A stretch of 45,710 bases of DNA from Coprinopsis marcescibilis (Eukaryota > Basidiomycota > Agaricomycetes > Agaricales > Psathyrellaceae): positions 154,297 through 200,006 of the forward strand of contig ML210187.1 in assembly GCA_004369085.1 (NCBI GenBank), read 5' to 3'. Below the pieces are notes generated by a model. That model searched no databases. It was not told the origin of the DNA and was given only the letters and a program-made list of their open reading frames with translations. This document shows, piece by piece, positions 1 to 40,090 of the stretch (positions within the stretch are counted from its first letter, which is position 1; every line of letters begins with the position of its first letter). Both the position numbers and the translations under genes were made by a program.

Positions 1-2300
1 GGTAGAACATACACTGTGATTTTCGGAACTGCAGGTATTGTGGATCTAGACATATGAAGCGGGCAAGATTCAAAAACCTTAGAAAATGCGCAGAATTGAC
101 AGAATTTCAGGCTTGTAATGCAGAATTTGTAGGATATATCATTTCAGCTGTTAATAAAAATATTTGGAAGTGGTAAAGTAGGCCCATATCTAATTGCTAA
201 CATTGGTTTGAAGTCAATTGGCCAAGTTCTCGATGAGGGAGGGGAGAAAGAAGGTTTGCCGTCACGTCATGTGATCGTGTCACATTGGCCGGTCCATGAC
301 TGTATATTTGGCGGTGCTTGGCAAATCCCTCTGACGGATTGGTCATCCGCTTGATGGTTTTCGAACCGCGTCGTGCTCGCTGTCGACGTCAACGACGACG
401 ATGGCAGCAAAGGCAAAGGCTAGGTGCGTGTATTTTAAACCTGAGGAGATTTTTGCAACGTATCCCTAATATCTATCTTCAGGACCTTGATTATTCGGCT
501 GATATCGACTGCCCAGACGGGTTTCTTCTATACCACACAACGGCTCCGAACAGGTCCCAAGCTTTCCGCCGTAAAATATGACCCTGTAGGCAAGTATTGA
601 CCCAGTATGCAAGGCAAGTCGCAGAACTGAATGTGCTCGTCTCTTTAGTGAGGCAGCGGGTTCTATTCGTTGAGAGCAAGAAGACCAAGAAAGGTTGAGC
701 ATCTTTGAGGGGCGTGTTGGGAGACTAGACTGTGAGTTGGCGCAGCCCTCTCGAATACCTTTGACTTATCGCACCCTAGTTTCCATGTATACTCACATAA
801 TGACGGAACCATAATGCATCATGTTTCACTTCTCTGGGTCCTCTTCACACAACAGTCACCGCCATAATTAGCGAGGAGTCATTTCCGTGGGCGGGACTGT
901 GACGGAGCAAGCGCCACGCGGAGGGTGAGTGGTGGATGATGAATAGAAATCTGCCCCCAGTTATTGCTGCATCTCAAAAAACACAACTATCCAGTCGGGG
1001 CAACCAGAGGCGGCTTGATACCCCGAGTTCGACCATCCTGGACAAGGGACATCCGGCGAATTGTGTTGCGGACTCTTACGTTCCCAAATCTTTCTTTCCC
1101 TGCACACAGTTGTTTGGAGGTCCGAGGAAGGCGGTCAACCTACCATCGCCCGATTGTTGGCCTGTTCCGCAGGCATCTCACAAAAGGACCCAAGGCTTCG
1201 CAGTTCGCCGCGGGCTGCACGACTGCTCATGGCCTCGCCCGTCAAGACAATATATGGAGCTGGAATGTTGTGACATGTCGTGACGGTGGTTGTTGCCGAC
1301 GGCTGAGCTTACCTGGATCGTCAGGAAATGATGCTCTAAACCCGATTTGGGCAGAATACGTCCAACAACACATCGGTGACAACGAAGCTTGCCCAAGGAA
1401 GTGACAACCTTTGCGCGTACCTGCCCGGGGGTGTACTGTCCTGACAAATTCCGGTTTCAGAAATGCGAGTGACGACGTTGGGCTGTGTACTTACGTTGGA
1501 TCATGGGTGTCAGTGAGGTATTTTTTTGCAATGTCGAAACTCAAGCAAATTAACATCGACTCAGGGTCGGAATCCAGGACCACCACGCTGCGGTCAATCT
1601 ATGCCGTTGAAGACGAAAACCTTCATTAAGTCGCTAGTACCCACCATAGCATTCTAACTCTTTAACGTTGGTAGCAGGTCGTGTAGCACCAAAGATATCT
1701 TATTTTCTTGTGCCCTACAAACTGATCTCAACCATTTCAAATGTATGGCGTCTCTGGCGTACAAATTACTGACTTGGAACGGTGAGTCGTTTAACCGGCA
1801 TTTTCAAGTTCAGGCTTATGATCACAATTCTCTGACGAACGATGCTTATCAGAGGTGCATGGCTACGCTGAAACACAAGGACTCAGTTACCAAACATCAA
1901 ACTTTGTGAGTTAACTATGACAGAAGTCAATCCCCTATGCAGGATTCGCCATCTCAGGACAAAACGCTCTGCTCGAAAAACTTAAAACCACGGTATATGT
2001 GTGGTATTGAAAACATTGTACGAGGCGAGCTTCAGAATCAGATTCCTCCCTAGAAATCAACTAATTATGGAAACACGAAGGCTCTGGTGATGGTGCCTGT
2101 CGTGTACCTGCCCAATCGAAGACCACGCTGCGCCCGGAATAAGTTTTCAGTCTGGGCGAGACCTCGAGATGAGATGGGCGGGCTCCTTCCGTCTCGTGTA
2201 AGTCTTTTCTCGGCAAGGGAACACGTCTCAAGGTTCGGACACAATATGTCAAAGTATCTGCCTGGGGCTCAGGTAGCCGTGAATCGGTGCACGAACATTC
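1..2300. other. 5' intergenic region, no gene recognised
   Basis: Open frames up to 146 codons occur (for example 964-1404 on the plus strand), but they overlap one another in several frames. None has a recognisable domain, signal peptide or intron-supported extension. The last few hundred bases are the upstream region of the laccase gene. Nothing else could be supported. Confidence 0.5.
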
Positions 2301-2305
2301 CAAGG

Positions 2306-2313
2306 TATAAAAG
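2306..2313 (+). promoter_or_regulatory. TATA box of the first laccase gene
   Basis: TATAAAAG lies 132 bp before the laccase ATG at 2438. This would give a 5' leader of about 100 nt, a normal length for a fungal gene. Confidence 0.6.
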
Positions 2314-2437
2314 CTTTATGGACTCGAGGAATATTCACCATCCTCACAAAATTGCCTTTCTTTTATTTTCATCTCTTTTGCTTTTCATAGACTTTTGCAA
2401 CATTGCTAATCCCCCAAGAACGTCCCAATTCTTTCTA

Positions 2438-4562
2438 ATGTTTAATTTCCGATCATTGCTATCACTCGCCACGTTGGCTGTGGCGTTAGCCCCCCAGCTC
2501 ACCATGGCTCAACCGCCTACAGGAATAATGGGTCCAGTCGGAACCATGACCGTCACCAATAAGATTGTGGGACCCGATGGTTTCAGGCGACCGTGACTCC
2601 GATTTCCATACGTATTCGACTTAGTACTGACCCTTGAATTCTCTAGTGTCATCGTCGTCAATGACCTCCATCCCGGTCCACTGGTGACTGGGCAGAAGGG
2701 AGACAACTTTGACATCACGGTTGTCAACAATCTCGAAGATTCCACCATGCTTCGACAGACCAGCGTTGTACGTCTTCAACTGCCCGCAGTAATCACAAGG
2801 GTTGTCTGATAAAGTCTGTTCTTACTACAGCATTGGCACGGTCTCTTTCAGCACCAATCGGCTTGGGCAGATGGTCCTGAAGGCGTAACCCAATGCCCCA
2901 TCTCGCAGTCCGGTGAATCGTTTCGTTATACGTTCACTGGTGGTCAAGAAGCCGGTACTTATTGGTACCATTCCCATTTTGGCACTCAATACTGCGATGG
3001 GTTGCGAGGCCCCATGGTCGTCTATGACCCGCAGGACCCTCACCTTGGCCTCTATGATGGTTAGTGCAATTGCGTTGCAATTGCTTGAGTGAATTCGACT
3101 GATACTCCCCTTCTAGTTGATGATGGTAAGCTCCGCGAGCACGAAGGCTCGCGCATTTCAGGCGAACTCACCCCAAATTGCAGCCACCACCATCCTCACC
3201 CTCACCGACTGGTATCATTTACAAGCGCCAGCCCTCCAAGCACCCGCTCGCCCAGACGCGACTCTCATCAACGGCAAGGGCCGTCAACCCGGAAACACCA
3301 ACGCAGAACTCGCCATCGTAAACGTCGAAGAGGGCAAGCGATACAGGATCCGTCTTATCTCGCTCTCCTGCGACCCCAACTACGTGTTCTCGATCGACGA
3401 GCACGAAATGACTATTATCGAAGTCGATGGTCAGAATATCGCGCCAGTTCCAGGCATCCAGAGAATTCGTATCTTCACCGGTATGTCAAATGCTCTCGCG
3501 TGTGATTCTATTTATGAGCTTCTTTTCTGCAGGCCAACGATATTCATTCATTCTTGACACCGAGGTAAAGCGGTCAAGAACTACTGGATCCGATCTCTGC
3601 CCAATTTGGGTAACAACGGATTGGCGGGTGGCTTCACTGGTGGCATCAACTCTGCCGTTCTACGCTACTCGGGCGCTGCGTCCGCAGAGCCTACCACCCC
3701 CCAGTGGCCAAATACCAGCAAGGTCCTCGACGAGACAGAGTTACACCCCTTGATAAATGCGGCCGCCCCAGGAGGCAGTGCGCCTGCAGACGTCCATCTC
3801 AACTTGGCACTTGCGTTTAACGCGGGAACGCGCAAGTGGACTGTGGATGGCAAGTCGTGGACATCGCCTCCTGAGCCGGTTATGGCCCAAATGATGGCTG
3901 GTATCCCTCCCGAGCAGCTCCTTCCCGCTGGTTCAATCCGAACCTTGCCTAGGAATGCTGTTGTAGAAGTGTCTTTGCCTGCTCTTGTTACTGGTGGACC
4001 GGTACGTTTGTTTTCCCGATGCTTATGTTGTAAAACTGGCTCATCATGCGAAATAATCAAGCACCCCTTTCACTTACATGGTCATGCTTTCAGCGTCGTT
4101 CGAAGTGCCGGTAGCAGCATTTACAACTACGATAACCCGGTCCGACGCGATGTCGTCTCTATTGGAAACGCTGGTGATAATGTTACGATCCGATTTATTA
4201 CGGATAACCCAGGGCCCTGGTTCTTTCACTGGTGCGTACTCTAGCAAAAAAGCCTAATGATTCTGTCAGCTGATCCTAGCTAAAGTCACATAGAATTCCA
4301 TCTGCACGAGTAAGTACCCTGAAACATGACTAGTCCTCGTTATTTACGGTCTGCGCAGTGGTTTAGCGATGGTGTTTGCCGAAGCTCCCGAAGCTATCGC
4401 CGAGCAAGCACCCCCCGGTACGCCCGTTCTCTCTCAAATCCTGACGAATTAACCTTTCTGATGCACGTTGCAGCCGAGTGGAACACGCTGTGCGACAGAT
4501 TCAACGCCCTCCCGGAGTCAGCCACCCGAATCACGGCGCCTACGCCCGTCCCCCAGGCTTGA
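2438..4562 (+). pseudogene. laccase (multicopper oxidase) with a frameshift in exon 6
   Basis: Laccases oxidise phenols and reduce oxygen to water with four copper ions, outside the cell. Ten exons are readable: 2438-2592, 2647-2767, 2831-3059, 3117-3125 (nine bases), 3184-3480, 3533-4001, 4062-4231, 4286-4309, 4359-4417 and 4474-4562. A signal peptide ending near TMAQ opens the protein. The copper motifs HWHG, WYHSH, HPFHLHGH and HCHIEFH are all present, and Leu lies ten residues after the type-1 Cys. Exons 1 and 2 have the same lengths as in the second laccase of this window (155 and 121 nt), and exon 3 and exons 4+5 match its exons 3+4 and 5+6 (229 and 306 nt). In exon 6 the frame breaks at 3565-3572: after ILDTE eight bases precede the VKNYW codons where a multiple of three is needed, and total exon length leaves remainder two. 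It is either a recent pseudogene or an assembly indel; every other part looks functional. Confidence 0.85.
3117..3125 (+). other. nine-base micro-exon of the first laccase
   Basis: The exon TTGATGATG has a TAG acceptor at 3115-3116 and a GTAAGC donor at 3126. It encodes the Val-Asp-Asp stretch that laccases carry before the second cupredoxin domain. The second laccase encodes the same residues inside a 37-nt exon (39231-39267), which shows the micro-exon is real coding sequence. Confidence 0.75.
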
Positions 4563-16447: not shown

Positions 16448-17047
16448 TCATCTTCTACACAGCCCAATCATGCGCCTTTGTGATCCCACACTGGGCGTCA
16501 GGCCCAATGGCTGCCTCCCGCGCGCACCCACAGCTTCCATCAAGGACGCACTTAAATACAAAGGTCCGGTGACCAGTGGTACCAAACCCGCACCAGGGAC
16601 GTTTCTAGCTGCCTTTGTGCACGAGTTCTTCCATAATTTCGTGTGCTGGCTTTCCCTTTTCCTTATCCGCTTGGCCTCGCGCATTAATGATCTTTTGGTA
16701 TGTGGGTCTGGGTGTTCGGCGGCGGCGAGCTCTAGAGCTTGCGCTGCACGCTCGATGGCAGCCTTGTCGTCTGTGGGGTTGCTAGATGTATGGGAAAGTT
16801 GGACATACGCAGTCCTGCCGTTGTCGTGATGGTCTACGTGGCTTCCGGGTTGGTCCAAGAGGTGGGGGCTGGAGCTGAAAGTTGAGCTGGAACTGGAGCT
16901 AGGGCCGGCACTGGGGCCTGAAGAGAAGAGTTGGTCGTAGGAGGGTAACTCGGAATCTCGCCTTGGCGGTGAAGGTGGGCCGGGTAGAGTAGCGAAATTT
17001 CTGGGTTTGGGCTCGGAGTTCTTGTCGAATGGGGCGTCGATTATCAT
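16448..17047 (-). pseudogene. LPSY-motif protein, duplicated copy A with frameshifted end
   Basis: This copy of the 18837-19463 gene matches it for the first roughly 170 residues: MIIDAPFD start, PGPPSPPRRDSELPSYDQLF, and AAQALELAAAEHPDPHTKR. Near 16513-16530 it lacks 16 bases that copy B has between GCTGCCTCC and CGCACCCACAG. The frame therefore changes just after SLMEAVGA. The end becomes an unrelated Arg-rich tail instead of the hydrophobic and WAVEKLKNGR end. It may still be translated as a 199-residue protein lacking the last hydrophobic part, or it may be a pseudogene. The deletion is seen directly; which of the two is an inference. Confidence 0.7.
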
Positions 17048-17372
17048 TTTCGTACAAGTAGATGAAGCTATTTCACTTCAGTATCTCGCCTAGCAGTGAG
17101 ACAGATGAGATACTTACAGACCAGGGCAAGAGAGCTCTGAGCCAAAGAAGCGGTTGGTGGGGGTGCCGCAGACGTGTGTTGGGCCTTATTATACCTGAGA
17201 GCACGTTACCGGCAAAAGGTGTGAAGAGCAACTGCGGAATACCGTGATATGAAGGGCCTATTCACGGCGAGGCTACTTCTACTAGGTCATTGTTTATGCA
17301 AATGCACAGTCTTGATGATAACGATCTCTACAGCATTCCGAGTTCTCGGAATCGTCCATTAACCACGTGCAG

Positions 17373-18836: not shown

Positions 18837-19463
18837 TCATCTCCCATTCTTCAGCTTCTCCACAGCCCAATCATGCGCTTTTTTGATCCCACACTGGGCG
18901 TCAGGCCCAATGGCTGCCTCCGTGACTCTCACCACCACGCCCGCACCCACAGCTTCCATCAAGGACGCACTGAAATACAAAGGTCCGGTGACCAGTAGTA
19001 CCAAGCCCGCACCAGTGACGTTTCCAGCTGCCTTTGTCCACGAGTTCTTCCATAATTTCGTGTGCCGGCTCTCCCTCTTCCTTATCCGCTTGGCCTCGCG
19101 CATTAACGATCTTTTGGTATGTGGGTCGGGGTGTTCGGCGGCGGCGAGCTCTAGAGCTTGCGCTGCGCGCTCGATGGCAGCATCCCCGTCTGTGGGGTTG
19201 CTATATGTATGGGAAAGTTGGACATACGCAGTCCTGCCGTTGTCGTGATGGTATACGTGGCTTCCGGGTTGGTCCAAGAGGTTAGGGCTGGAGCTGAAAG
19301 TTGAGCTGGAACTGGCGCTAGGGCTGGCACTGGGGCCTGAATAGAAGAGTTGGTCATAGGACGGTAGCTCGGAATCTCGCCTTGGTGGTGAAGGTGGGCC
19401 GGGTAGAGTAGCGACGTTTCTGGGTTTGGACTCGGAGTTGTCGAATGGGGCGTCGATTATCAT
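18837..19463 (-). CDS. LPSY-motif small protein with hydrophobic C-terminus, copy B (intact)
   Basis: A 208-residue single-exon protein of unknown function. It starts MIIDAPFDN like the MIID start of the 13383 gene. Pro-rich PGPPSPP is followed by LPSY at residues 33-36 (LPxY, a variant of the PPxY ligand for Rsp5-type WW domains), then a Ser-rich linker. A charged helical stretch comes next (AAQALELAAAEHPDPHTKR, then REAKRIRKRE). A hydrophobic Gly/Ala segment follows (GPLYFSASLMEAVGAGVVV), and the end is WAVEKLKNGR. It shares the helical and hydrophobic parts with the 15125-15844 protein. A GTAAGT donor-like site upstream (about 19536) suggests an intron in the 5' leader. Confidence 0.72.
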   Translation of the reverse strand: MIIDAPFDNSESKPRNVATLPGPPSPPRRDSELPSYDQLFYSGPSASPSASSSSTFSSSPNLLDQPGSHVYHHDNGRTAYVQLSHTYSNPTDGDAAIERAAQALELAAAEHPDPHTKRSLMREAKRIRKRESRHTKLWKNSWTKAAGNVTGAGLVLLVTGPLYFSASLMEAVGAGVVVRVTEAAIGPDAQCGIKKAHDWAVEKLKNGR

Positions 19464-19786
19464 TTTGGTTCAAACAGATGAGTCTATATTCCGCTTTAAC
19501 CAACAAATGAGACAGGGATATGGCAAAAGTTACTTACAGACCAGGGCTAGGGAGCTCTGAGCCAAAGAAGCGGTTGTTCAACGGGGGTGCCGCAAACGTG
19601 CGTCCTTATTATACCTGAAGGGTTCGGTGTGAAGAGCAGCTGCGGAATACCGCGATATGAACGGCCTATTCACGGCGAGGCCTACTTGTAAGGTCATTGT
19701 TTATGCAATGCACAGTCTTAATGATAAAGATCTCTACAGCTTTCCGAGTTCTCGGAAACTTCGAATGACCACGTGAAGCGAGCAAA

Positions 19787-19865
19787 GGTCGGCGACGCAC
19801 TGGTGTTCTTGCCATAAGCCACTTATATCTCCAGTTGCGGGTTCGAGCCTTACAGACGCCCTCCA
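19787..19865 (+). other. possible degenerate tRNA-like (Pol III) promoter head
   Basis: GGTTCGAGCC at 19840-19849 fits the B-box consensus GWTCRANNC. About 45 bases upstream, ACGCACTGG (19795-19803) is a weak match to an A box. GGCG and TGCC around it could pair as a D stem. The anticodon arm does not fold properly, and a T4 run at 19876-19879 would stop Pol III soon after. It may be the remnant of a tRNA-derived SINE head, or chance. Confidence 0.25.
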
Positions 19866-20016
19866 CACAGAGACGATGCTTTTCCCCTTATCTTCGGAGA
19901 CGGGGGACTGGATCGTGCTCCGGAGGCGAGCCACAGACAGGACTGGGCGCGGCAAAGCCCCGCTGATGGGAGCGATCCTATCAGTTGGCCGTCGGCCGGC
20001 ATCTCGGACCACGTTC

Positions 20017-20045
20017 GATGTCTTTTGGGACTCCCAAAAGACATC
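20017..20045. repeat. perfect 14-bp inverted repeat with one-base loop
   Basis: GATGTCTTTTGGGA is followed by C and then its exact reverse complement. In DNA it could form a cruciform. In RNA it is a very stable hairpin within the structured segment. Confidence 0.95.
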
Positions 20046-20171
20046 TGGAAAAATTGGGAGTGAGCCCCAGACCCCCCACATTTCACAACCCGGCTCACGG
20101 GGTCAAGCCCCTGCATCACGCACAGCCACGCATCACGGGGTGGAATCCCCCAAGCTGGGCAGCGCCTACAG

Positions 20172-20242
20172 TTCATGTAGCCGGTTGGGGTAGCGGTTAA
20201 GCCCCCTGATGAGTCCCTTCGCAAGGGCGAAACCGACTATGG
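20172..20242 (+). ncRNA. putative hammerhead ribozyme (open stem III, type III topology)
   Basis: All invariant core bases are present. U16.1 is at 20185 and H17 (a U) at 20186. Stem I is GGGG 20187-20190 with CCCC 20202-20205, plus a U-G pair. Then come C3-U-G-A-U-G-A9 at 20206-20212. Stem II spans 20213-20228 (G10.1-C11.1 closing pair, then CCCUU/AAGGG with a bulged U, or a U-G/CC-GG version). G12-A-A-A15.1 are at 20229-20232. Stem III pairs 20178-20185 with 20232-20239 (seven of eight pairs, one C/A mismatch) and extends by two wobble pairs. Stems I and II are closed by loops, stem III is open. Predicted self-cleavage is between 20186 and 20187. Activity has not been tested. Confidence 0.8.
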
Positions 20243-20255
20243 TACTAGGAGTCAA

Positions 20256-22425
20256 ATAGGAGCGGCTCGGAACTTGTTAAGACCCAAGTCTGTGCTGATC
20301 GGATGTGAGCGTAGCCGTGAGTGTGATCGACTGGTTCTCATTATCTTTGCCTCCCACCCTGGCGTCCCTCTCCCAGATAACGCCATTTTCATCGTCAGAA
20401 GCGAAGACCCTCGATTCAAAACTGATAAGCCCCAGCGCAATCTGTGAAATTCTTGCCTCATTTAACAACAGAAGCAAATTGCTAACTACATTCTTTGATA
20501 GGTGTCCAACTTGAAAAATGGCCTTCCTGTATCTTCGGACGCACACCGAAGTACCACGACCATTTGTTTTGACGGCTCTCAAGTGAACCGTTCATGGAGA
20601 ACTTTGATTTCAATTGGCACCTTCCCAGTGTGCAAACTGAGACGCAGTCGGAACGATTCGCATGGGCTCTACATAACCCGGCCACAAATGTTAACGTGAC
20701 ATACTTGTTTCTGTGAAGTGTACACCTGTGGCAACCGTTGGACATCCAGAAGACTTCTTTCGTCTACCGTCGCTGTTGTTCATTTGGTCAGCAAATCGCA
20801 ACGGGTGTCAGTGGGTAGATTCTTGGGTCGATGACACACGCTTTCCCCGCCTGTGGCGTTGTGTGCGCACTGCGGCGTGATAACAATTTCATCTATAGGC
20901 CGGTGAGTCGACGGTGTACAATGTGACCTTGGCAGTCAGCTGACCCGGAAAATAGTGCCCGTCTGGAATCTTACAACGAGGTTTTGTACCACCACGAACT
21001 GCAAGCCCCAAGTTCCGAATATATCTTGAGAATTTCCGGTCAACCTTTGTTTTCAAGTAGGCATATGACCTCAGTTCCTGCCTCCCGGACACTGACAATG
21101 CACTTCTACCGTATTCCATGTGCTTCAGAAAGTGTATTATGTGTCAGAGTGCAGAGTAGACGCGCGGAAATCGACTTCCGTCCACTTCTGCAGGCAATCG
21201 CGTGCGAACTTCGAAGGTTGTTGAGTAGGTGTGTAGGACGGACATTCATTCTTGTCGCAGTCCTTCCACGTAAATTGATGCCATTCACAGGAGTTAGATC
21301 AAAAAGTCTCGTATTTTGGGATCGCTGGGCTATCTTGCTTCACGTCGGAAATATCAAGGTCGGAGCTTTGCTCTAGTGCGGGAGGAGGTCGGAGGTCGGT
21401 GTGCGGGAGATCGGGTCGGTCGTGCTTCGTTCCGTTGGCTCTTCGTCGAGCGACGATTGTCGGAACCGAGCTCATCCCCTGAAAGAACTGGAAGCCCCTG
21501 CACCCAAGCCATAGTTGAATCGCTTTCATGCCCTTCGTATCTTGGCCAAAGCAAGAGAAAATCAGTTCCAAGCGAGAATCTAACAATTTAGGACTGATCA
21601 GTTCAACTACCTTCTTCTCGTGGGAATGTTGGGACGCCTTCCAAAGGTGCCGTCCATCTCATTCATAGAGCCTTGTGTTGAGTGATCCAATTCGATCACC
21701 CGGCTCGAGAGTGGCGTTTGAAGCATATCACAAGGCGCAACATGAATGGATTTCTCATCATCCATCTTCGAAGGTCTAAACAGCTTCGACAGTAGAACCA
21801 CACGCGATTCAAAAGTTCGAAGGAAGCTTAACCACATGCTCTTAATGCCTTACCTGGGAAGGAATAGGACAAGCTCAACTTGTATATGGGGAATACGGAA
21901 CTTCGCTCGATATCGATCGTTGTACTTGTTCACGCCGATTATATGCCTATCGATGGTGTAGCGTCTATCAATAGTACGTCCCCTGCCCCAGTTGAGGAGA
22001 AGGTTTACGACGCGTTTTCGGGGACGGAAAAGGCTACACGCCGGTACTATCTGCGAGAAATACGGCCACACGAACCTTCAGACTCGTTGTGCATGCGTTC
22101 CGTGCTACCTTCACGCAAGGTTTTACTCACGAAGAACACAGATCTCGTTCACTCCCCAATGGAATCGTGCAGCAAAGCTTCAGACCAGCATCGAATAGGC
22201 AACAATATCACAGAATTGCTAGCCCCATAAGGGCTCTCGTGTCACAAATCTGGTGTGGGACGTGACCGAGACAGCGTTCAATCCTCCGATTTGGGTTCCA
22301 GCGATTATCATCTGGCCCGGCTCGATTATCGCATACCCAGTGGTAATGGCGACTTTGTGCAATCGTGCTATCCGGAATCGGGAGGAGCGGTGCGCTTCTA
22401 ACCTACACGTCGCCCCATGATAAAG
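20256..22425. other. 2.2 kb without a supported gene
   Basis: Many short overlapping frames occur on both strands. The stretch 20573-20716 (plus) reads as 47 codons that look protein-like (from MENFDFNWHLP onward). It has no upstream continuation in frame and no recognisable family, so it may be a decayed exon. The right end is the upstream region of the protease. Confidence 0.45.
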
Positions 22426-22549: not shown

Positions 22550-24505
22550 ATGCATTTCACCGCCGTTTTCGCCACTCTCGCCGTTCTCCTGACAACACCC
22601 ATCGTGTTGGCGGCACCCGGTGCATCGTTGATGTCTGTTGAGACCTTCAGCGGCGAGACCACTGGCAAGCACATTGTCAAGTTCAGGGCTGGCGTTTCCC
22701 GAAGCGCACGAAGGCAGTGGATCCGCAGGCTCAAGCTTGCGGCCAACACCGAAGACTGGGATCTCATCAACGGTATCGCAGGTTCGTCGTCCAAGTCTTG
22801 ATTCGCCGCTTGGTCGTTCAACGGGTGCACATTTCGATAGGAAACCTCAACGAGGAGGCGCTCAACACCCTGCGAGCATCTGAGGATGTCGAATACATCA
22901 CTGAGGATGGTATCGTACATACCATGGCAGCTGTGACCCAGTTAGTCCTTTGATACTCCCTGATCCGGGCTTATTATTAACTCCCGGAAAGGAGCAACGC
23001 ACCCTGGGGTCTTCAGAGAATCTCACAAGCTGGAATCCTTTCAAACACCAACGCTGCGTATGTCCTGTGCAGTTTCATTACGACTGTTCCCGACTGACCG
23101 CCACACAGTGCGCTTACCTACTCCTACACCTATGACTCATCCGCTGGTAGTGGTGTCGACATCTACATTGCTGGTATGTATAGAGCAATTAGGCCCGGAT
23201 GTTGAAACTGACCGCCTACTATTTTTATAGATACCGGTGAGAACCATGCCCTTCTGAGTTTCTGACAAACTAAATACCCACGAAACCTCAGGTGTTCTGG
23301 TCACTCATGTAAGAGTTATTTGTTTCGCGTACAGCAAGACAGCTGCTCACACCATTATTAGTCTCAATTCGGTGGACGTGCTCGATGGGGTGGTACCTTC
23401 GGAACTACCGGGTATGTTCTCACTCTGCGGCAGATAGCTAGCCTGCTGATACTCTCATCTAGGTCGACTGATGGACACGGTCACGGAACTCACTGCGCGT
23501 GCGTTTGAACTTTTCTCATTCTGCACGTTCCCGAAGGGTACTCATCGTTATTAGTGGCACAGCTGCAGGTAGCCAATACGGTGTCGCAAAGGTAAGCATC
23601 GGTATCTCTCGACAGTCGTTTTGTCCCTCTAACATCCCCGTTCTATAGAATGCATCCATCATTGCCGTCAAGGTTTTGTCCGATGCTGGATCTGGTAGCA
23701 TTGCAGGAATGTGCGTATGGCTTTACTAGCGGACACTACAACTATCTTACACGATGTTCAGTGTATCTGGATTGGATTGGATCCGTGGCCAAGCCGCCGC
23801 TTCAGGACGACCAACAGTCGTCTCTATGTCTCTTGGTGGTGGCGCCAACACTGCTCTCGACAACGCTGTTGCCAACGTATGTGAATCAATCCTATCCCCG
23901 AACACAGACTTACTCCCTTTTAGCTTGTCTCTGCTGGTATTCATGTCACCGTCGCTGCTGGAAATGACAACCGAGACGCTGCCAACACCTCGCCCGCCCG
24001 AACCCCATCCGCCATCACCGTCGGTGCCTCCAACATCCTCGATCAGAAGGCTTCCTTCTCCAACTTTGGCCCTATTGTCGACGTCTTCGCTCCAGGCCAA
24101 GCAGTGATCAGCTCTTGGATCGGAGCCAGCAACGCCGTACGTCGCCTCTCCTCTGCTTTCCTTTAGCCTACCATCTAATATTATGTATTCGTTCCAGGCT
24201 ACGAACAGCATCTCCGGAACCTCCATGGTAAGTTTGCGCTGGATTATCCTTGATATGGTACTACGTTCTGATATATCTATAAGGCTACTCCCCACGTTGC
24301 TGGCTTGGTCGCATACTTGATCTCCAAGGAGGGTAACGCCGCCCCCGCTGTCATCGAAGCCAGAATCAAGGCCCTCTCCGTCAAGGGCGTCATCACCGGT
24401 CTCAGTAAGGCATACAATAGCATCGTCTTCGGTCTCTATACTGACTAGCAACCTTCTTCAGATGCCGCAACTGCTAACAACCTTGCCCAAATCGGCCCCG
24501 TTTAA
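22550..24505 (+). CDS. secreted subtilisin-like serine protease (proteinase K type, S8)
   Basis: A secreted endopeptidase made as a preproenzyme. Fifteen exons give 397 residues: 22550-22781, 22841-22940, 22992-23057, 23109-23173, 23231-23236, 23292-23308, 23362-23411, 23463-23498, 23555-23591, 23649-23710, 23762-23876, 23924-24136, 24198-24227, 24284-24404 and 24462-24505. A signal peptide (ending near VLAAP) is followed by an inhibitor I9 propeptide (KHIVKFRAGVSRSA, then VEYITEDG). The mature part starts near NAPWGLQRIS. The catalytic triad is Asp in ADTGV, His in GHGTHCAG and Ser in GTSMATPHVAG; the oxyanion Asn is in AAGNDNRDAANTSPA. Length and order are normal for fungal S8A proteases. 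The catalytic Asp is encoded across a 6-nt exon. All splice sites keep the frame. Confidence 0.93.
23231..23236 (+). other. six-base micro-exon carrying the catalytic Asp
   Basis: The exon is ATACCG, between a TAG acceptor at 23229-23230 and a GTGAGA donor at 23237. It completes the Asp codon, encodes Thr and begins Gly of the DTG motif. Skipping it keeps the frame but removes two residues including the catalytic Asp. The next exon is only 17 nt (23292-23308). Confidence 0.85.
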
Positions 24506-37768: not shown

Positions 37769-39989
37769 CTAAGGCAAGGCGTGAGCGCCAGGTGTAGGGA
37801 GTGACCTAGCGACGAGGGACACGCTCGTCTCTGCAGGTGTAAGCTTCTTGAAGTCCTCGCAGAGCTTGTTCCATTCAGCTATCACCATTTGTCAGTATCA
37901 ACGAACACGAGCTTTCGACGATTCAGACTTACTCGGAGGGCGTGAAATATCTTCGGGAGCCTCCAGGAACACCATGCCAAGTCCACCATCAAGATGGAAT
38001 TCAATGTGGCTGTGTAATGATCAACAGGTTAGTCGGACAGTAGATGATGCGGCCTTGGTGAAGAGACGCACCAATGGAAGAACCAAGGTCCAGGGTTATC
38101 GGTGGTGAATCGGATGATGGTCACACCATCGCCGCCTGCTGCAGTCAAGCCCGTGCTGACGACATCGCGACGAACAGGGTTCACAAAGTTTGCAGTATCA
38201 GCCGGCTCATTGGCGCTCTTGATAACACTGAATGCATGCTGCGAAGCGAAACCGTCAGGATTGCAGAACTCGTATCTCAAGAAGGGGATATTGCTCACTC
38301 CGTGCAAATGGAAAGGATGCTAATGGCGGAAAGTAAAGTGTCAGCGGTGCAGAGATGAGGGAGGGCGAGCTGAACTTACGGGACCACCGGTGCTCAGTGC
38401 CTCGACCCTGATCTCAACAACCTTGCCTTTGGGAAGGACCTTCATCAGCTCGTTCGGCAAGCCAAGGTCCGAGGGAGGAACATTGTTCATGAGCTTGACC
38501 ATAATCGGCTCTTCCTGATGAGGCCAAGACTGTCCATCGATCCTCCACAGGCCACCGGTGAATGACATCTTGATAGGGACAACGATATCAGCCTCGGCGC
38601 TTCCGCCAGGTGCAGCAGGATTCAGCAGTGCACGCAGGTTCTTTTCAGCGAGCTTGATTGGGTTGGTGGCGGCTGAGGTTTCGGGGAGCTTGGTATCGTT
38701 CGGGTTGGCGGGGTCGGCGTAGCGGAGGATGGCAGAGTTGACACCCCCTCCTGAGATCCGTGGGAGTTGGCCTCTGCCAATGTTGGGGATGGCTCGGATC
38801 CAGTGCGCGCTGCCTACAGCTGCGTTCGCTTCCAAGACGACGGAGTACCGTTGGCCTGCGCCATATGAGTAAAGCGAAGGAGGAAGACTAAGAAGATATC
38901 ACGTACCAGCGAAAATACGAAGCTCCTGCACGGTCAGTGGCTCGGTGGGCTGACCGTCAGCCTCGATAATTGTCAAGTTGTGGTTGTCGATGGAGAAGGT
39001 GTAGTCTGGGTCGCAGGACATGGATACGATGCGGAGGCGGTAGCGTTGGGTAGCCTCAACGCCAACCGTATGGATCTCACCGACGTCAGGTCGAAGAGGG
39101 TCACGGCCCTTGCCGTTGATCAAAGTAGCGTCTGAAAGTGCCGCGCCTCTGATTGAAGGTGCTTGGCGATGATACCTTTTGACACACTGTGGTGAGTGAA
39201 GGTGCTGTGCGGAGGACATGAGAGACTCACCAATCAGCAAGTGTGATGACGGTGGTCTCGTCGTCGACTGGGGACGTATCCAAATTAGCTGCTGGGGTAG
39301 TGGGAGCATCAACAGAAAAGACTAACCATTGTAGCGTGCTTTGTGTGGATCGTCGTCGTCGTAGATTACAATGGGACCTCTGAGGCCATCACAGTATTGG
39401 GTCTCTGTCAAAGGCATGAGTAAGGAATGGATCTGTTCGCTAGGGAATTCTGCTTACTGTAGTGAGAGTGATACCAATACGTTCCAGCTTCTTGTCCTGC
39501 GGTAAAGTCATACCTGAAGGTTGCACCGTTCTGTGGCAAAGGGCACTGAGTAACACCCTCTGGACCGTCCATCCACGGAGTTCCTTTTTGGAAGACGCCA
39601 TGCCAATGCTAAGCAGAGGCTGTCAGCATCCAGTATAAGTCTCCAAGATATTGCCAACGCACCACGCTGGTCTGGCGAAGCATAGTCGTGTCGTCAAGAT
39701 CATTGACGAGATTGATCTGGAAGTTGGCTCCCTTCTGAGCCGTGATAAGAGGCGCCGGGAACTGCCCATTAACACCGACAACTCTGAGAATTGTGTCAGC
39801 GAACGATATTCCACGGGGTAGGAAAGGCACATACGGGCGGTCGAAACCATCAGGAGCGGCGCGAATGTTACTGACTCTCATATCTCCAACCGGGCCCATG
39901 GATTGCGCGACAACGAAGACTGGGACAGAGCTCGCGGCTAGCGCAGCTAGCGTGACGAGTTGTCTGAACATCGGAGATAGGAGCATCAT
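37769..39989 (-). CDS. laccase (multicopper oxidase), intact
   Basis: Secreted four-copper phenol oxidase. Eleven exons give 553 residues: 39835-39989, 39663-39783, 39458-39608, 39327-39404, 39231-39267, 38907-39175, 38380-38855, 38299-38319, 38072-38238, 37933-38009 and 37769-37878. A signal peptide ([16 protein letters not shown]) is followed by the three cupredoxin domains. Copper motifs: HWHG, WYHSH, HPFHLHGH (split across the 21-nt exon) and HCHIEFH with Leu ten residues after the Cys, as in class 2 laccases. ATGs at 39989, 39986 and 39971 are in frame; the last (MFRQLV) best matches the MFNFRS start of the other laccase, but 39989 gives the same exon 1 length (155 nt). It is a full-length gene and lies about 33 kb from the broken laccase. 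Confidence 0.93.
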
Positions 39990-40090
39990 GGTGATTAAGC
40001 GATTAAGTTTGTTGGTTGAGGCAAGTCGTTAATATGAGAAAGAAGTCGAGATTAGTCGATTAGGTAGGTCGTCTCTGCGGAAAGTCTATA

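Follow-up and report, generated by a model that had tools for sequence, protein, structure and literature searches.

Small mobile elements that carry a hammerhead ribozyme (HHR) are a kind described from plants and animals and little described in fungi. In the plant LTR retrozymes reported by Cervera et al. (2016, PMC4918200), the LTRs carry two type III HHRs and are accompanied by a PBS, a PPT and 4-bp TSDs, and the model put forward for them is that the self-cleaved RNA is circularised and then copied by a borrowed reverse transcriptase. Metazoan non-LTR retrozymes are reported to be type I, low in GC and arranged in tandem (PMC7229834, PMC7761336), and the schistosome repeats to include a full tRNA-Gln (PMC4918200). 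In fungi, the Helenus TRIMs are presented as short LTR elements with a PBS, a PPT and 5-bp TSDs (Kojima 2024, PMC10886601).

Hammerheads as such have been recorded in fungal genomes. In Yarrowia lipolytica they are reported within interspersed repeats (Perreault et al. 2011, PMC3088659). For Pleurotus ostreatus five Rfam Hammerhead_3 loci of 55 nt are given, three of them within approx. 10 kb on one scaffold (PMC5040776), and in an Agaricomycete transcript study hammerheads found with Infernal are stated to have been filtered out (PMC8893723). A text search for the word "fungi" in the main texts of PMC4918200, PMC7229834 and PMC7761336 gave nothing, and our literature searches, which covered open-access PMC papers, listed no described fungal retrozyme.

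The window analyzed here is a stretch of DNA of 45,710 nucleotides. It contains a laccase gene region (2054-4244, plus strand), the exon of which at 3561-4241 was confirmed as laccase by protein matches and a PDB search; among the best 120 of 260 matches, the best-ranked named relative is 54% identical. The named relatives among these best 120 of 260 matches are presumably Agaricomycetes. A second laccase-like region (38341-40028, minus strand) and a secreted subtilisin-like protease (at approx. 22550-24505, plus strand) were named by eye. Two similar minus-strand open frames (16448-17077 and 18837-19469) were likewise recognized by eye in a local duplication, directly upstream of the element described below, with an 84-bp piece matching at 87%.

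The same window carries a type III hammerhead sequence, whose parts are located as follows:

20178-20239, plus strand: type III HHR sequence, with core and three stems (direct sequence reading)
20178-20185, plus strand: 5′ strand of stem III, pairing with 20232-20239; its last base is U16.1 (T20185)
20186-20187, plus strand: predicted cleavage site between H17 (U20186, T20186 in the DNA) and G20187, deduced from the HHR core
20187-20205, plus strand: stem I, in which 20187-20191 pair with 20201-20205, with the loop AGCGGUUAA
20206-20212, plus strand: core CUGAUGA, C3 to A9 (sequence reading and copy alignment)
20213-20228, plus strand: stem II, with a G-C closing pair, a bulged T20214 and CCCUU/AAGGG (sequence reading)
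20229-20232, plus strand: core GAAA, i.e. G12, A13, A14 and A15.1 (sequence reading and copy alignment)
20232-20239, plus strand: 3′ strand of stem III, with whose final base the family A copies end (copy alignment)

All features of a type III HHR are present at this site: CUGANGA and GAAA, the U16.1-A15.1 pair, H17, three stems and an open stem III. The sequence-only reading that preceded this analysis had described the core positions in order with three stems, and direct inspection of 20178-20239 agrees with it: stem I of the window copy has four G-C pairs and one U.G, stem II closes with a G-C pair, and stem III (20178-20185 / 20232-20239) is paired at seven of eight positions, with one C.A. 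The wobble pairs by which that reading extended stem III (20176-20177 / 20240-20241) lie outside the end of the element and are incidental. The base directly 3′ of the predicted cut is the G of GGGGUAGCGG, and the cut at 20186/20187 would leave 53 nt before the 3′ end of the element. Loop II CGC (20220-20222) and loop I GCG (20193-20195), as read by eye, could form a kissing contact; loop pseudoknots are reported to be common in hammerheads (PMC3088659). The ribozyme at 20178-20239 is probably real, and the core predicts self-cleavage of transcripts between 20186 and 20187. The presence in fungal DNA of a type III hammerhead sequence that closes a structured segment on its 3′ side is supported; that it would be notable in fungi does not hold in the same measure, in view of the hammerheads already known from Yarrowia (PMC3088659) and Pleurotus ostreatus (PMC5040776).

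A descriptor comprising the core, H17, U16.1 and the three stems, the thresholds of which were written once the site was already known, gave exactly one match when both strands of the 45.7-kb window were searched; 300 windows generated from the window's dinucleotide model (13.7 Mb, both strands) gave none. The Rfam scan of the window returned nothing at the gathering score. A permissive scan of 1.2 kb (19600-20800) listed the ribozyme on the plus strand only, where RF00008 matched the site with 23.7 bits (E 0.026; gathering score 48.5). In our own reading, the alignment of Rfam would shift the cut by 6 nt in the 3′ direction, and its pairing is poorer than that of the register proposed first. 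The genome-wide search with RF00008, in which 67 of 6586 candidates were scored, yielded four places, each inside a copy of one and the same repeat: C34 and C99a (26.7 bits, E 0.027), the window copy (23.7 bits, E 0.18) and C99b (19.3 bits, E 3.4). The covariance model proposed as a check therefore does match the site, with 23.7 bits in the window and 26.7 in the best copies, but below the gathering score of 48.5. At E up to 10 the same search also produced matches in 7 of 14 control genomes, and the score alone is therefore not decisive.

According to DNA searches of the fungus's own genome, a dispersed repeat of approx. 400 bp terminates on its 3′ side in the hammerhead, which is part of this repeat and not a stand-alone ribozyme. 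The following features were located in the window copy of the repeat:

19828-20239, plus strand: whole element copy of family A, 412 bp, 61% GC, apparently non-coding (alignment with C34, C99a, C99b, C146, C82 and C204)
19833-19849, plus strand: segment resembling the T arm of tRNA-Arg, at the 5′ end of the element (C34 versus tRNA-Arg(TCG), 16/17)
19840-19850, plus strand: pol III B-box-like site GGTTCGAGCCT (8/9 fixed positions)
19884-19906, plus strand: hairpin with a UUCG loop, the second block alike between families A and B (BLAST 87%, block 61-89)
20017-20045, plus strand: perfect 14-bp inverted repeat with a 1-nt centre (sequence; window copy only)
20186-20196, plus strand: A-box-like TGGGGTAGCGG, in stem I and its loop (6/7 fixed positions; weak)

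The sister copies C34 and C99a are 396-397 bp long. Three open frames over the window copy matched no Pfam family (E 0.1), and the longest open frame is not the same from copy to copy. Genome-wide, the repeat is present in at least 16 copies or fragments, the counts being lower bounds. Seven of these form family A (C42, which is the window copy, C34, C99a, C99b, C146, C82 and C204) and nine, reached through C67, form family B (C67, C142a, C142b, C364, C237, C374, C253, C59 and C289). The counts exclude a gene-paralogue match (C42:171589), self-inverted and continuation matches of listed copies, and matches to flanking repeats (C109, C52, C205 and C332). Three members of family B (C142a, C142b and C364) have flanks in common, which means that the 16 copies do not represent 16 insertions; these three may be segmental duplicates, in which one insertion was copied with its surroundings.

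Eleven copies are aligned as far as the 5′ end, and 10 of them start with TCT, C146 being the exception; the alignments of C237, C374 and C59 stop short of this end. At the 3′ end, CTA is found in all five family A copies that extend so far. The 3′ end of family B is not fixed: C67 has CTA yet resembles C289 over 9 bases beyond it (7/9), and C289 and C374 are without CTA. The 3′ part is missing from C146 and C82, and C204 consists of the last 74 bp alone. Among the scored candidates of the own-genome DNA searches, neither an LTR nor a tandem copy was seen, nor any further locus that has either end in common with the element. No TSD abuts both ends in the five two-ended copies (the 3′ boundary of C67 being uncertain), around which the longest nearby match is 7 bp and displaced.

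Within the element, the UUCG-hairpin pattern (up to 3 mismatches) matched at 10 places, all of them inside listed copies, and nowhere in the controls. The inverted repeat at 20017-20045 looks like a snap-back duplication; other copies aligned there carry one arm at most.

Another dispersed repeat was observed upstream of C289 (L045) and in four contigs (L047-L050). It ends in ...GTAGCTCGTCA, after which the flanks diverge, and its copy L049 has CTTGTCA instead. An empty site for C289 derived from this upstream repeat was rejected, since the repeat has an identical end point in four other contigs.

Comparison of the two families, made with one pair of copies (C34 of family A and C67 of family B), revealed 54 identities over the 60 positions of the HHR block (90%) and 147 over the 336 of the rest of the element (44%), with gaps counted as differences (Fisher p 5e-12). 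BLAST of the same pair found two blocks only, the HHR block and the UUCG hairpin near the 5′ end. As an alternative to selection, exchange of a module could have produced this likeness. The core is also conserved in other genomic copies, as had been expected of a genuine hammerhead: CUGANGA and GAAA are whole in five of the eight copies that reach the HHR and broken in three (C99b, C67 and C289). The whole cores are those of four family A copies (C42, C34, C99a and C204) and of C374, in which the closing pair of stem II is mismatched. N7 alone varies among them (U, U, U, G, A); C34 and C99a do not differ anywhere in the HHR, so that it is C204 and C374 that supply the variation. U16.1-H17 is aligned as T-T in all eight copies, and loops I and II are largely conserved.

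These data bear on the possibility that an ordinary structured repeat end merely looks hammerhead-like, through chance resemblance or as an inactive relic. This is improbable, given the lack of descriptor matches in 300 random windows, an HHR block far more alike between families than the rest of the element, and changes confined to N7 among whole cores; the sub-threshold Rfam scores and the matches in control genomes at E up to 10 nevertheless agree with it, as do weak thermodynamics and covariation that is not significant. Across 7 distinct rows, the stems are paired in 81.6% of cells, which was equalled in 33 of 500 shuffles, and their covariation score was equalled in 75 of 500. Stem I is paired in 94.3% of cells, stem II in 85.7% and stem III, the least, in 68.8%; all six slid versions of the stem register pair worse.

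In the window copy, the hammerhead fold has an energy of −17.3 kcal/mol and the best fold −20.8, so that the other fold is favoured by 3.5. The exact-register pairing probabilities of stems III, I and II are 0.13, 0.03 and 0.07 in the isolated window copy and 0.39, 0.04 and 0.11 in isolated C34; with flanks they do not exceed 0.07 (four copies tested). The minimum-energy fold of isolated C34 and C99a is a three-way junction of the same three stems, in which stem I is one pair off register and C3, H17 and A14 are drawn into pairs. By these models the window copy looks less favourable for folding than its sister copies, and it may be a poorly folding relic. Neither tertiary contacts nor co-transcriptional folding is considered by ViennaRNA, and the poor hammerhead fold is therefore a caution and not a refutation.

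The termini of the repeat partly recall those of Helitrons, the hallmarks of which are given as a 5′ TC, a 3′ CTRR, a subterminal hairpin and insertion between A and T (PMC4289320). The repeat has a 5′ TC, a hairpin approx. 9-11 nt before the 3′ CTA and no TSD; counting the first flank base, CTAA is present in four of five family A copies (4/6 with C67), and the genome contains Helitron helicase domains (16 matches). We nevertheless regard as unlikely that the repeat is a non-autonomous Helitron and its HHR either a passenger or coincidental. Both sides conform to the A^T target rule in only one of five copies, that of the window (the 3′ boundary of C67 being uncertain), and a whole HHR core with a free N7 is left unexplained. 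Moreover, HHR-block matches among the scored candidates are confined to listed copies, which means that no Helitron with the same 3′ end was seen. The helicase matches lie at 16 places, some of them in long open frames, the longest of 1790 aa.

The 5′ end of the element has a tRNA-like character. The alignment of C34 with the fungus's own tRNA-Arg(TCG) has a local score of 15 (maximum of 13 in 200 shuffles), and the window copy differs from C34 by one base over 19833-19849. At the B-box site of family B, C142a reads GTTCAACCC, and imperfect versions occur in five further copies. The B box is 12 bases away from the start of the element, which leaves no space ahead of it for an A box; in a circle or a tandem, the A-box-like site of stem I would precede the B box by 55 bp. 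This arrangement would suit a fungal retrozyme whose promoter is split by circular permutation, with the B box, of tRNA origin, at the 5′ end and the A box within HHR stem I at the 3′ end, an idea that we consider unlikely. If it were true, there would be a working pol III promoter only when the element is circular or tandem, and one sequence would serve as both ribozyme arm and promoter box.

The combined A and B box score is 14/16 in the circle, a value equalled by 16 of 200 shuffled circles. The joint is the best reported circle site, at score 14, in three of five copies (C42, C34 and C99a); C67 scores 12 at the joint and C99b is without an A-like site. A score of 14 is also reached elsewhere in the linear window copy. 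Two related candidates were rejected. Stem I taken as the D arm of a tRNA had a best score of 9, equal to the shuffle median, against 40 distinct tRNA sequences (representing 55 of 63 listed tRNAs; 5 were left out and 3 near contig ends skipped), and a tRNA across the joint was called by ARAGORN in doubled copies only at lowered thresholds, with many other calls there.

The repeats could also be DNA copies of a fungal viroid-like or satellite circular RNA that were reverse-transcribed and integrated by chance, an origin that we consider very unlikely. A length of approx. 400 nt, 61% GC, a stable circular fold (z −2.6 to −3.0 in three copies) and a type III HHR would suit such an RNA, and ribozyme-bearing viroid-like RNAs are reported from fungi (PMC11721086, PMC13343976). 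However, the spread of no fewer than 16 copies or fragments over two diverged families and the tRNA-like 5′ end suggest a resident element, the ribozyme is on the plus strand only in the permissive Rfam scan of 19600-20800, and two patterns had no match in IMG/VR, which is a weak test in a collection that is not fungal. The bacterial and archaeal genome set, not a fungal collection either, contained no match to the element.

A SINE of tRNA origin that is mobilized by a LINE, its tail being shaped like a hammerhead but recognized by the LINE reverse transcriptase and not acting as a ribozyme, would fit the 5′ tRNA-Arg-like T arm with its B box and the 3′ block alike between families, but is highly improbable in the face of a B box so near the 5′ end (12 bases) that an A box cannot fit before it, the absence of a TSD (five two-ended copies) and of a simple tail, and uniform 5′ ends alongside 3′ truncation of some copies.

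The repeat has copies in two families, a fixed 5′ end, a 3′ end fixed in family A and an HHR block far more alike between the families than the remainder. We hold with moderate confidence that the repeat in the window is one copy of a dispersed element of approx. 400 bp ending in a type III HHR, likely a retrozyme-like non-autonomous mobile element of fungi, whose RNA would cut itself between 20186 and 20187. Transcripts of such an element would self-cleave at 20186/20187. If the linear cut RNA were the template for new DNA, copies should begin or end at the cut; the whole-core copies of family A (C42, C34, C99a and C204) do not, and run 53 nt past it, from which we infer a circular, multimeric or uncut template. 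A linear monomer released by cutting would then not be what was copied back to DNA; among a re-ligated circle, a multimer and an uncut precursor, the circle is the most likely template, as proposed for plant retrozymes. The copying would be performed by the reverse transcriptase of a partner element. Before the HHR lies TGGGTAGCGCC, which may be PBS-like by comparison with Ty1. The HHR is the best-kept block between two diverged families, and its role in the cycle of the element is open to direct test.

The HHRs of Yarrowia lipolytica are, like the one analyzed here, located in multi-copy interspersed repeats of a fungal genome, but in that of an ascomycete yeast, and are compared here by description (PMC3088659). 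The Pleurotus ostreatus loci share the type III form and an Agaricomycete host; they are given as Rfam annotation, no element being described with them, and are likewise compared by description (PMC5040776). With the plant LTR retrozymes the element has in common that it is non-coding, that its HHR is of type III and that its ends are not at the cut site (PMC4918200). In contrast to them, it has one HHR and a length of approx. 400 bp, with no LTR or abutting TSD seen (five copies) and no second copy nearby. Like the metazoan retrozymes and schistosome repeats, it is small, LTR-less and non-coding (PMC7229834, PMC7761336, PMC4918200), but its HHR is type III, its GC content is 61% and it occurs as single copies. 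The Helenus TRIMs, found in some Agaricomycetes, are also short and have tRNA-like sequence with pol III boxes; the passages describing them mention no ribozyme of their own, whereas the element here carries an HHR (PMC10886601).

The element therefore resembles a retrozyme in plan, yet departs in defining features from both described retrozyme classes, as well as from SINEs and Helitrons. If real, it could serve as a resident source, in DNA form, of the viroid-like circular RNAs that fungi are now known to contain. Retrozymes have been described from plants (LTR, type III) and from animals (non-LTR, type I), and an LTR-less, GC-rich element with a type III HHR, present as a single copy per site in what is likely a mushroom-forming fungus, would help to fill the fungal gap beside them.
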